Below are positions 21,373 through 25,773 of a stretch of 64,000 nt of DNA, one piece after another; position 1 is the first letter of the stretch, and every line of letters begins with the position of its first letter. The notes under the pieces were generated by a model, which saw only the letters and a program-made list of their open reading frames with translations, did not search any database and was not told the origin of the DNA. This DNA is from Mariniblastus sp. (GTDB lineage Bacteria; Planctomycetota; Planctomycetia; Pirellulales; Pirellulaceae). Both the position numbers and the translations under genes were made by a program. Location: NCBI GenBank assembly GCA_022447605.1, contig JAKVBG010000019.1, positions 1-64,000 on the forward strand. The letters run 5' to 3'.

Positions 21373-21456
21373 GCAACTTTTTGCCGCAACTTTTTGCCGC
21401 AACTTTTTCCCGTAATCCTTTCCCGTAATCCTTTCCCGTAATCCTTTCCCGTAATC
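21373..21456. repeat. 13-bp tandem repeat (minisatellite) in an intergenic region
   Basis: Six full 13-base units and a 6-base partial unit. The first two read GCAACTTTTTGCC, the third GCAACTTTTTCCC and the next three GTAATCCTTTCCC, then GTAATC. The array starts just after the propeller-like repeat gene and runs into the GAGG ribosome site of the small membrane protein at 21470. Two block types with one hybrid unit suggest slippage from a diverging parent unit. Confidence 0.95.
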
Positions 21457-21469
21457 GAGGTATGCAATC

Positions 21470-21661
21470 ATGGTTGGACTGATTGGGGGCATCCTGCTCG
21501 CCGCGCTCACCATCTATTTCGTCATCAACAAGTTTGCTTCCCCCTGGTGGGTCGGCCTGCTGGCCTCGCTGGCCGTTTTCGCCGTATGTACGTTCACAGG
21601 GATCTTCGGCCTTCTCGCAGGTTCCTTGGTACTCGGGGCGCTGTTCAAAGCCGACTTTTAG
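21470..21661 (+). CDS. Small two-span membrane protein
   Basis: 63 residues, MVGLIGGILLAALTIYFVIN then PWWVGLLASLAVFAVCTFTG and a final hydrophobic run. Two to three membrane segments cover nearly all of it. GAGG lies 10 bases before the ATG. No family is recognised. The 13-base repeat array sits just upstream, and the leader may affect its expression. Confidence 0.7.
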   Translation: MVGLIGGILLAALTIYFVINKFASPWWVGLLASLAVFAVCTFTGIFGLLAGSLVLGALFKADF

Positions 21662-21781
21662 TGGTTTCAGCGCTTGGTGCGATCGGCATCACGAAAGGTC
21701 GGATCCAAATTTCAGATCGACTCGGTAAGCTCTTTCACGTTATCCGTCTCATGACCGAATCGTTTTGACCGGGACGAAAAT

Positions 21782-21810
21782 TTGCTGATTCGGCTCCGAT
21801 TGTGTATAAA
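21782..21810 (+). promoter_or_regulatory. Sigma-70-like promoter upstream of the thioredoxin-like selenoprotein gene
   Basis: A TTGCTG -35 element (21782-21787), a 17-base spacer and a TATAAA -10 element (21805-21810) lie about 100 bases upstream of the ATG at 21911. Confidence 0.5.
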
Positions 21811-21910
21811 TCTCGCAGGCAACACTTAACCACCGGGCTACCTCTTCCGCTCGTCTCACCCGGATCCGTATCGCGGCAATCTGTCGATTTTTTGAGAAAA
21901 GGGGAGAGTC

Positions 21911-23314
21911 ATGTTGAAGTCATTTCTCACAGGCACGAGCTGTTTTGTTTTAGTCAGCCTCCTTTCGTCAGGCGTTTCGGGGACCGAGTGGGTTGACACC
22001 CCAACGGACCACCCGGATGAAACGAGTTACTGCCAAACCAAGGTCAAGTTTCACACGGATTACGTGAAGGCCTTTGAACTCGCCAAACGGACCGGCAAAC
22101 CCCTCTTTGTTTTACAGCTATCGGGTGACCTGAAAAACGCGACGTTCACGTGAAATAACGCATTGAGTTTCAAGCAGTCTGCTTTGAACGATCCGGCCAT
22201 TGCCGAATTTTTGAACGAGAACTACATCTGCACCTATAAACAGGTTTCCACTTTCCGGGTATTGGCACCGGGAAAACGAACCAACGCGGACACCCGGCAA
22301 CTCGAACGCATTGAGGGGTGGGAACGGGAAAGCATTGAGAAGTTGGACCTAAACAGACAAAAAGAAGCGTCATCCTTCTTGAACCAAATCAAATTCAAAC
22401 GCAACGGCGGAAATGTCGCCAGTTATTTCCTGGAACCCGGCGGCCATGTCCTACAGATCGTGCTGGGCCCCGTCCGTCCGAATGACCTGTTAACTTCAGC
22501 CGAGAGTGCTCTCGAGTTAAATCAAAAACTTGCTTCCGCAACTGACCATGAGATTCGCGACCAAATTGCGTCCAAACACCTGAAGACCAGCATACCCCCC
22601 GAATATGTCACGGCCTATTCGGATCTGAGGTCCAACGGCCGCCTGAGCAAAGCGAAAAACCTGGACACCGGTGTTACGAGGACAGACCAAGAATTTCGAA
22701 ACGCTTTCTTAGCAAATTATCTTGCACTCCACATGTCTTACGGGAACGCTTACGGGCTGGACGACCGTTCGGTTTTTCCCGAGGTCATTCCACATGGTTT
22801 CACAACGGTTGGCCGATCCTGTGAGAACTTGGCGTTAACGGAATTCCCCTTGCCTGAGTTGCAGCAAATCGAAAAGCATGTCTTCCAAGTCTTGCTAGGC
22901 CAGCCGTATAACCCGGTGGGCGAGAAGTACCATGAAAAACTTGAAACCGTTAAGACCGCGTTTGCTCGAAAGCAAGGCGTCGTCGCTCTATTGACCGATC
23001 GCCAAACACAGAAGCATCCCACGGTTAAACCAAAGGAGTTTGTTCCTCTGAAAAAATCTGATTTGATGAAAATGGGTTCAATCCGAAACCAAAGCGAACG
23101 ATTCTGTCTGATTGAAATGTCCATAAGCGAACTATTTGCCATCTTCAGTGATTTGGGGATCACTCCCGTTCAGGGTTCACTCGAAAACCGAAAAGTCGAA
23201 TCCAATGGCTGGGGCGCGGTCTTATTTGATAGTTCGGGCCAAGTCAGAAAGGTGCTTCCCAGTGGCATTCGGCCACAACTGGTGAGTAACGCCATGAAGC
23301 GAATTACCGATTAG
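21911..23314 (+). CDS. Secreted thioredoxin-like protein with in-frame UGA; predicted selenoprotein
   Basis: Read with UGA (22151-22153) as selenocysteine this is 467 residues with Sec at position 81. The ATG at 21911 has a GGGGAGAG ribosome site and a signal peptide (MLKSFLTGTSCFVLVSLLSS, GVSG). The part before the UGA (FELAKRTGKPLFVLQLSGDL) has the first helix and strand of a thioredoxin fold, and FT-Sec-NNA stands where such folds carry the reactive Cys. After it, LNDPAIAEFLNENYICTYKQ continues the same fold. The frame stays open 1.16 kb downstream with no credible second start (only a TTG at 22163 without a ribosome site). A hairpin follows the UGA (see 22169-22188). The alternative is a nonsense-mutated pseudogene. 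The C-terminal 250 residues match no family I know. Confidence 0.7.
22169..22188 (+). promoter_or_regulatory. Predicted bacterial SECIS hairpin after UGA 22151
   Basis: The stem pairs 22169-22176 with 22180-22188 (8 pairs, one bulged U), apical triloop GUC at 22177-22179, starting 15 bases after the UGA. The apex GCA-GUC-UGC is almost the GCA-GGUC-UGC apex of the E. coli fdhF SECIS. A G in the first two loop positions and a loop about 23 bases from the UGA fit bacterial SECIS rules. Confidence 0.65.
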
Positions 23315-23346
23315 TCGTCCCGACTCCATGGGGCGTTCGGTAGACC

Positions 23347-23383
23347 CTCCATCCGCAAGCGACGCATGCGGATGGAGTTTTTT
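23347..23383 (+). terminator. Rho-independent terminator after the selenoprotein gene
   Basis: An 11-bp perfect stem (23347-23357 with 23367-23377) with a 9-base loop is followed by six T residues. It lies 33 bases after the TAG of the selenoprotein gene. Confidence 0.9.
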
Positions 23384-23590
23384 CACAGAACCAATCCAGG
23401 CTGGCTGTCTAACCCGTCATCACAAAACATGAAACCGGAGGCGATTCGCCGTTTTCTAGTGCCTGTGATAAGCTTCTGTTCCGGGCTGAACTGTCCACGC
23501 GGGCAGCTCCAAGATGACCTGGCCGAACATTCTCACAGGCATTTGTTAACGAGCGATAACTCACCAGACAATTTCCGTTCAGCAATATCC

Positions 23591-24190: not shown

Positions 24191-25773
24191 CTCACCGCAG
24201 CCTGGCACTGTTGAGTGCTTTGCTGTGCGCCCTCCCGGGAAACCTCTTGGCCCAAGCGACGCCCAACCAGGCGACCAACCAGGCGACCAACCAGGCGACC
24301 ATTCTGATCGCTACGGATGAACCGACAAAGACCTGCGACCCGATGATCTATGGTGGTTTCATCGAACATCTCGGCAAACAGATCTACGGGGGCTTCTTTG
24401 AACCAGGCTCACCCCTGGCCGACGAGCACGGATTTCGCCTCGATGTGATCGAGGCAGTCAAAGAACTGAAGGTGCCTGTGATTCGCTGGCCCGGGGGCTG
24501 CTTTGTAGACAGCTACCATTGGAAAAAAGGAGTCGGGCCAGACCGCCAGCCGTATGATGACGACCGCTGGGGTGTTCTCGAACCGAACACGTTCGGCACC
24601 CACGAATTCATCGAGCTCTGTCGCCGCGTCGGGGCGGAACCGTACATTTGCCAGAACAGCCTGGCCAGCATCGAGGAGATGGCCGACTGGGTCGCTTACT
24701 GTAACGCCACGACCGGTGAACTGGCCGAAATGCGCAAGCGGAACGGACATGCGGAACCGTTCGACGTCAAATTCTGGAGTGTCGGAAACGAAAAGGGTGG
24801 CAAAGGTTATATCGACAAAGTTCGCGACACGGCAGCCGCGATGAAAGAGGTCGACCCGAATATCTTGGTGACATGCTCGGGGTCCCACGGACCACGGGCC
24901 TATATCGACCCGTACCTGTTCCAGACGGCGGGGCCGTACCTGGACCTCCTCTCGGTACATGAATACTGGATACCGAATTTTCAGCAACACCAGACGCCCG
25001 ACTACCTGGCCTGCCTGATGCTCTCGGAAAAGCCGGATGCCCACATCAGCGCCGTCGTCCAATCGATCGACAAGGCCAAGATGCGAGAGCGGATCAAGAT
25101 CGCCTTTGATGAATGGAATCTGCGCTCCTGGCACCATCCCGGATTTTCAGGGCACCATCCGAGAAAGGTCGATTACCAGGATCCGGAAATCATCGCCTTG
25201 ATCAAAGACCGAGATAAAAGCCTTGAGCCGTCTCTCTACACGATGGCCGACGCGCTGTTTTGCGCCTCGTTCTTTAACGCCTGCCTGCGTCACGCCGAGG
25301 ATGTCACGATGGCCAACGTCGCCTGCCTGGTGAACCAGACCGGCCCCCTTTACGTCCATCCGGGGGGAATCGTCAAGCGGACCCATTTTCACACCATGGC
25401 GATGTACGCCAACCTGCTCCAGGCGAATGTGGCCAGGACCGAAGTCGATTCGGACCGTCTCACCCACGGCGAGTCATCAGTTGCCATGGTCGATGCGATC
25501 GCCACGGTAGATGAATCGGGAGAAAAATGGTCGGTCGCGATCATGAATCGTCACCCTTCCCAGGAAGTCACCTGCACGCTCAAAATGGGAGACTCGCCGG
25601 TCGACGGCACCTACCGGGCGACCGTTCTGACAGGTGACTCACCCGATGCCTATAATGATATCGAACACCCCAACCGGGTGGTGCCTCAGGAGATGATGCT
25701 GACCTTCAAGGATGGCAGAACCAGCCTGCCCCCCCATTCACTTGTCATCATTGATGGACGACTAAACCCATGA
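24175..25773 (+). CDS. Alpha-L-arabinofuranosidase (GH51), secreted
   Basis: 532 residues from the ATG at 24175, which has GGAAAG upstream and yields a signal peptide (LALLSALLCALPGNLLAQA). GH51 enzymes release terminal arabinofuranose from arabinan or arabinoxylan. MIYGGFIEHLGKQIYGGFFE, VIRWPGGCFVDSYHWKKGVG and WSVGNEKGG (acid/base Glu of the GNE motif) are GH51 blocks, and FDEWNLRSW carries the nucleophile Glu. After the signal peptide lie three NQAT repeats encoded by a 12-base tandem repeat. Length is typical for the family. Confidence 0.92.
   Translation: MWNPVTHRSLALLSALLCALPGNLLAQATPNQATNQATNQATILIATDEPTKTCDPMIYGGFIEHLGKQIYGGFFEPGSPLADEHGFRLDVIEAVKELKVPVIRWPGGCFVDSYHWKKGVGPDRQPYDDDRWGVLEPNTFGTHEFIELCRRVGAEPYICQNSLASIEEMADWVAYCNATTGELAEMRKRNGHAEPFDVKFWSVGNEKGGKGYIDKVRDTAAAMKEVDPNILVTCSGSHGPRAYIDPYLFQTAGPYLDLLSVHEYWIPNFQQHQTPDYLACLMLSEKPDAHISAVVQSIDKAKMRERIKIAFDEWNLRSWHHPGFSGHHPRKVDYQDPEIIALIKDRDKSLEPSLYTMADALFCASFFNACLRHAEDVTMANVACLVNQTGPLYVHPGGIVKRTHFHTMAMYANLLQANVARTEVDSDRLTHGESSVAMVDAIATVDESGEKWSVAIMNRHPSQEVTCTLKMGDSPVDGTYRATVLTGDSPDAYNDIEHPNRVVPQEMMLTFKDGRTSLPPHSLVIIDGRLNP
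24264..24299. repeat. 12-bp tandem repeat inside the GH51 gene
   Basis: Three perfect copies of CAACCAGGCGAC encode the NQAT-NQAT-NQAT stretch just after the signal peptide. The unit length is a multiple of three, so copy changes keep the frame. Confidence 0.9.

Follow-up and report, generated by a model that had tools for sequence, protein, structure and literature searches.

A gene of Mariniblastus sp. (Planctomycetota; Pirellulaceae) raises the question of whether an in-frame UGA ends its translation or is read as selenocysteine (Sec). The gene lies in a stretch of 64,000 nucleotides (contig JAKVBG010000019.1 of assembly GCA_022447605.1, positions 1 to 64,000), the whole of which is called the window here. 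Its ATG (21911), a TGA (22151-22153) and a TAG (23312-23314) share one frame, and this TGA is the only one in 467 codons. An earlier note on this DNA had proposed that the frame of an open reading frame with a signal peptide continues past the TGA to the TAG, and its coordinates were confirmed. Comparison with relatives indicates that the UGA is very probably read as Sec. The gene probably represents a new planctomycete selenoprotein family, whose product would be an exported monoselenol redox enzyme. Taken jointly, Sec insertion, a thioredoxin-like fold and a redox function of some kind have a probability of roughly 0.85.

Conservation of the UGA and the Sec machinery

The frame after the TGA stayed open in none of 20,000 mononucleotide shuffles of the post-TGA stretch. 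A homologue in a genome of the same genus (G026) is 82% identical, intact and keeps the UGA, and the residues around the UGA in L107 (Mariniblastus sp.) are the same as in G026. Relative to the closest homologue, the ratio of nonsynonymous to synonymous substitution rates (dN/dS) was 0.32 past the UGA and 0.26 ahead of it. The downstream part is therefore under selection as protein. In comparison with L010, the synonymous rate (dS) was 0.73 in 21911-22150 and 0.23 in 22154-23311, possibly reflecting recombination.

We searched for the family in relatives, in the class and in the phylum, and counted matches by hand from the listed rows, the class search listing the stronger matches. Among 99 genomes (the window's own and 98 relatives), 18 have matches, own included; exactly one TGA is present in 12 of the 26 matches listed there, and 5 of the remaining 14 represent second fragments of these TGA-containing genes. 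With a ten-sequence profile, matches appeared in 97 of the 397 genomes searched in the class, counting the window's own. Among the matches listed at E ≤ 1e-40 (n = 84, window included), 83 contain one TGA or more, a single TGA is the sole stop in 80, and G380 has no stop. The earlier note would have given up its proposal if all close homologues ended at the same place or if the downstream part were a pseudogene. These listed matches show that homologues do not stop at the UGA, and in the nearest relative the gene is intact, its part past the UGA evolving under purifying selection.

A DNA pattern scan of a collection of 84,980 species returned 97 stretches, 90 of which have the family residues in long open frames and 7 of which are short-frame chance matches (about 15 estimated). 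Titles were listed for 80 of the 97, comprising 74 planctomycetes and 6 others that are all among the chance matches. The motif FTUNNA is itself no finding for these stretches, because the pattern demands [FYL]-T-U-N-N-A, TGA included. The read-through matches in the profile searches were obtained without that pattern.

The window's genome, a draft of 203 contigs, contains selA (573.5 bits), selB (377.1), selD (270.8) and tRNA-Sec (68.7), each exceeding its curated cut-off, and the tRNA-Sec was also called by ARAGORN. All the Sec genes that the earlier note had listed for checking are hence found. A clear tRNA-Sec (E ≤ 1e-11, a threshold picked after the values were seen) was detected in 47 of 58 genomes with strong family members versus 136 of 338 others (p = 8e-9, kinship ignored).

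The hairpin downstream of the UGA

A bacterial Sec insertion sequence (SECIS) is described as having a loop of 3-9 nucleotides with a G in the first two places, located 16-37 nucleotides past the UGA; the published loop has G followed by G or U, and its ends are paired (PMC13188914). The hairpin that the earlier note had placed at 22169-22188 is present, folding here at 22167-22189, and its loop GUC sits 23 nucleotides past the UGA, in agreement with the loop and spacing rules. Its energy is -6.5 kcal/mol for 30 nucleotides and -8.2 for 48 (criterion ≤ -7.5). The putative element is backed by comparison with relatives, not by energy.

Hairpins past the UGA show compensatory synonymous changes, and they fall into two main types. 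In type A (21 genes), the stem is CAGRGC/GCYCUG in most, the pairs form in 20 or 21 of the 21, and Arg is encoded by AGA or AGG in 21 of 21, compared with 2.2 expected from the same genes. The pair with synonymous change on both sides is G-C in 9, A-T in 8 and G-T in 4, and the loop ends are G-C in 10 and A-T in 11 (Fisher p = 0.005 and 1e-5; 20 distinct sequences, kinship ignored). The loops are AGGU (10), GGGC (7), GGUC (3) and AGUU (1), in keeping with the published G-then-G/U rule and paired loop ends. The type A counts exclude L080 and L107, whose hairpin adopts a different register. The SECIS loop of E. coli fdhF, to which the earlier note had likened the window's hairpin, is GGUC, the loop of three type A genes.

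Type B (67 genes) has the form GCN-YUC/GRR-NGC, with the loop CGUGU in 53 of 67. Leu is CTC in 55 of 55 (15.3 expected) and CGT is found in 63 of 67 (8.3 expected). For one pair, the bases are G-C in 57, A-T in 3, C-G in 3, T-A in 2 and G-T in 1 of the 67. L014 is a short type B member, and L168 is the same gene by sequence. Like bacterial SECIS elements, these hairpins carry a small loop 16-37 nucleotides past the UGA in which G is followed by G or U, and in type A the ends of the loop pair. They differ in that one family holds two hairpin types and a third register, that of the window, and in the CGUGU loop of type B. An Rfam search of 21850-23400 at E ≤ 10 gave a single match, to a snoRNA family on the opposite strand and far under its cut-off, and no SECIS match was obtained at the loci of five relatives.

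Fold, sister families and novelty

The predicted structure model makes a thioredoxin-like fold of domain 1 very probable. As the earlier note had suggested, the UGA falls where this fold has its reactive Cys: Sec81 stands at the start of the active-site helix, on the first Cys of CXXC. The redox site needs correction in that the second Cys is Ala (UxxA), which leaves a lone Sec with no second Cys in the motif. No CXXC with both Cys, or with Sec and Cys, was found in domain 1, and across the family as a whole there is no conserved resolving Cys. Comparison thus supports the fold and the lone Sec as well as the recoded UGA. A PDB sequence search with a long profile gave weak matches only, the best (AGR2, E 0.057) ending ahead of the Sec. 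The C-terminal 250 residues, which had been thought to match nothing, have homologues in other planctomycetes, and their end is a probable second thioredoxin-like domain.

We then compared the family, termed FTUNNA after its motif, with related families. One sister family, in which the motif SCANSR is invariant (7 sequences), aligns with it at E 4.5e-15 and places Cys on the Sec, providing the Cys counterpart that the earlier note had suggested looking for. The alignment (A5) holds 7 of the proteins seen; L023, L024, L177, L178 and L194 were left out. SCANSR is closer to a UGA family with the motif mostly F(T/C)UTNA (8 sequences; E 4.5e-42), which is related to FTUNNA at E 1.9e-26. For a third UGA family, in which LUSAG predominates (7 sequences), the relationship has E 3.8e-26; the three of its proteins that were scanned reached no NCBIfam cut-off. 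When the phylum was searched, 60 of 294 genomes, counting the window's own, had matches, and among the 109 matches listed, 83 have one TGA and 26 none.

Several loci add to this picture. L201, L205, L207, L209, L215, L021, L186, L187 and L192 have mostly F(T/C)UTNA with a hairpin loop that starts CGUG, and their Cys form is SCANSR. L202, L203, L204, L206, L210 and L214 belong to the third UGA family, with a UUSAG-type motif U-SAG-x-S(L/M)RAV. L031 (minus strand; G085) consists of two adjacent, similar UGA genes in tandem with the motif GCTUNNG and is a further relative in the superfamily.

The new secreted selenoprotein of the earlier note is supported as a selenoprotein, but not as a single protein, as it is a member of a phylum-wide superfamily. 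The broader reading, to which we give even odds, is that a Planctomycetota-wide superfamily of thioredoxin-like selenoproteins that are exported (FTUNNA, F(T/C)UTNA, LUSAG and related), uncatalogued in the databases searched and present in several copies in some genomes, would rely on a lone Sec, with no resolving Cys, and on at least two hairpin types. It would form an extracytoplasmic selenium redox system whose proteins standard annotation would truncate at the UGA.

Neither the window protein nor the relatives scanned reached any Pfam or NCBIfam cut-off. In an inventory of 2026, prokaryotic selenoprotein families number 119, and in its accessible part no name or motif matched, the comparison being by name and motif, not by sequence (PMC13188914). 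Selenoprotein candidates of two planctomycetes are given in the S9 Table of a 2016 paper (PMC4807772), so that a family member may already be listed there. A method paper (PMC12013277) notes that filtering may remove families that lack Cys homologues; the FTUNNA family has few close Cys homologues.

Selenoproteins with thioredoxin folds are already known, and the closest named families are Trx7/PDZ, VPGUxxT and Thioredoxin_7. The Trx7/PDZ (seleno)protein NF041199, which appears as a selenoprotein in the 2026 inventory (PMC13188914), has a similar thioredoxin-like start (window residues 46-68, a weak 13.3 bits). However, the window protein is far under its 300-bit cut-off, its motif is CxxU rather than the UxxA found here, and no PDZ was found in the Pfam scan. 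The VPGUxxT families NF041382 and NF041383 are likewise thioredoxin-like with Sec, and they match the sister UGA families weakly (best 20.3 bits, L186), far under the cut-offs of 350 and 275 bits; the window protein was unmatched at E ≤ 1 and has FTUNN, not VPGU. Thioredoxin_7 (PF13899) did not match the window protein, and the best relative reached 20.9 bits against a cut-off of 27. In Thioredoxin_7 and DsbD C-terminal-like domains, the second Cys of CXXC is present, whereas here it is Ala. As far as these searches go, with the families of the 2026 inventory compared by name and motif, the family appears to be new.

The locus, alternative readings and proposed role

The features of the gene are collected in Table 1. 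The protein is probably exported, with a hydrophobic N-terminus as judged by eye. A terminator scan did not list the stem at 23347-23383; the scan accepts loops of 3-8 only and this loop has 9. No promoter was found in a scan of 21660-23450. Directly upstream of the gene is a 63-residue hydrophobic frame (21470-21661) without a Pfam match, preceded by intergenic short tandem repeats of 13-base units (21373-21456; 3.1 and 3.9 copies). Neighbours in the window include a transketolase, a prenyltransferase-like protein, a methyltransferase and an arabinofuranosidase, whose frame contains a 12-base tandem repeat in 3.2 copies (24263-24301). No common theme was seen among the 10 genes scanned of 38 flanking genes chosen from relatives, and neither these nor the window's neighbours suggest a pathway.

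Table 1 Positions of the features of the candidate selenoprotein gene in the window.
Feature	Positions	Strand	Basis
Shine-Dalgarno-like AGGGGAGAG upstream of ATG	21900..21908	+	by eye
Candidate selenoprotein gene, ATG to TAG, UGA read as Sec, 467 codons	21911..23314	+	translation and homologues
Probable signal peptide, first 24 codons	21911..21982	+	hydrophobic N-terminus judged by eye
Predicted thioredoxin-like domain 1, residues 38-208 (model residues 13-183)	22022..22534	+	predicted structure model
UGA codon, putative Sec81, motif FT-U-NNA	22151..22153	+	translation and homologues
SECIS-like hairpin, inner stem AAGCA/UGCUU, loop GUC 22177-22179	22167..22189	+	fold of window sequence; relatives compared
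Probable second thioredoxin-like domain, no conserved Cys, residues 338-467	22922..23311	+	borderline scores
Terminator-like stem, 11 pairs, 9-nucleotide loop, then six T	23347..23383	+	by eye

Several observations weigh against an exported redox selenoprotein. A clear tRNA-Sec is missing from 11 of the 58 genomes with strong members, also on closer search. Five of these 11 exceed the Rfam tRNA-Sec cut-off, as do 5 of 14 control genomes, and a full selA is present in 10 of them; G229, also one of the 11, shows neither tRNA-Sec nor selA. The gene is patchy in the genus, with any match in 3 of 27 other same-genus genomes. The two FTUNNA members without UGA that were read have no Cys at the position, one having Ser and the other Ala with a Cys one place before. 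Foldseek with the whole model found no PDB match at E ≤ 0.001. The window's hairpin is in the third register, common only to two relatives, L010/L107 and in part L011/L080, and its energy is ordinary (z -0.88; 36 of 200 shuffles fold as well); not being significant, the energy is therefore not used as evidence. Another inner pair of type B is standard in 33 of 67 genes only. The export assignment comes from a by-eye look at the N-terminus, and a lone Sec with no known partner would weaken the assignment of the chemistry.

The missing tRNA-Sec would be explained if the UGA were read through without Sec, as another amino acid or a programmed extension, with the hairpin as read-through signal; hairpins that follow stop codons are also able to promote ordinary read-through. 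We regard this as very unlikely, since the sister family has Cys at this position, the position is where the fold carries its redox Cys, family members and tRNA-Sec tend to occur in the same genomes, and selA persists in most of the 11 genomes. It is more improbable still that the locus holds two genes, an 80-residue exported peptide that the UGA terminates, followed by a gene whose translation restarts through translational coupling. The earlier note had seen no restart after the TGA, which holds for ATG alone (the first in frame is at 22733), because a TTG at 22163, ten bases past the UGA, opens a 383-codon frame. This codon is not kept, as the 90 family genes have Gln, Ser, Glu, Thr, Asp or other residues there; the restart would also split the domain mid-way, ahead of the active-site helix, and coupling accounts for neither the Sec machinery nor the Cys of the sister family. 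We rejected two genes on the unconserved codon and the split domain. A recent lesion, whether pseudogene or sequencing error, might be expected in a draft genome, for a gene missing from most of its genus. Because this UGA recurs in the homologue of 82% identity and across many further genera, with purifying selection past it, a lesion is next to impossible, and it was rejected.

A different alternative accepts the selenoprotein and doubts the turnover: the lone Sec could bind a metal, metalloid or other ligand. Sec binds soft metals, and the lack of a conserved resolving Cys would suit such a role. We consider it unlikely, as the position and the fold are typical of thiol redox proteins; that no metal gene was recognised among the ten flanking genes of relatives speaks faintly against it.

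For an exported redox selenoprotein, we propose the following mechanism. As judged from comparison, SelB and tRNA-Sec would decode the UGA, aided by the hairpin. The protein would act as a monoselenol redox catalyst beyond the cytoplasm, where its selenolate may attack an oxidised substrate, such as a peroxide, a sulfenic acid or a disulfide. Since no further Cys is shared by the whole family, an external thiol would then resolve the intermediate. Binding of the substrate or a partner may fall to the C-terminal domain. This monoselenol role as described remains tentative, at slightly below even odds.

If the reading is correct, planctomycete members are probably recorded as fragments that end at the UGA, and the use of selenium by this large environmental phylum would be underestimated. 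Studies would gain a thioredoxin fold that has a lone Sec, and the natural hairpin sets, from 21 genes of type A and 67 of type B, could be used to probe recognition by SelB.
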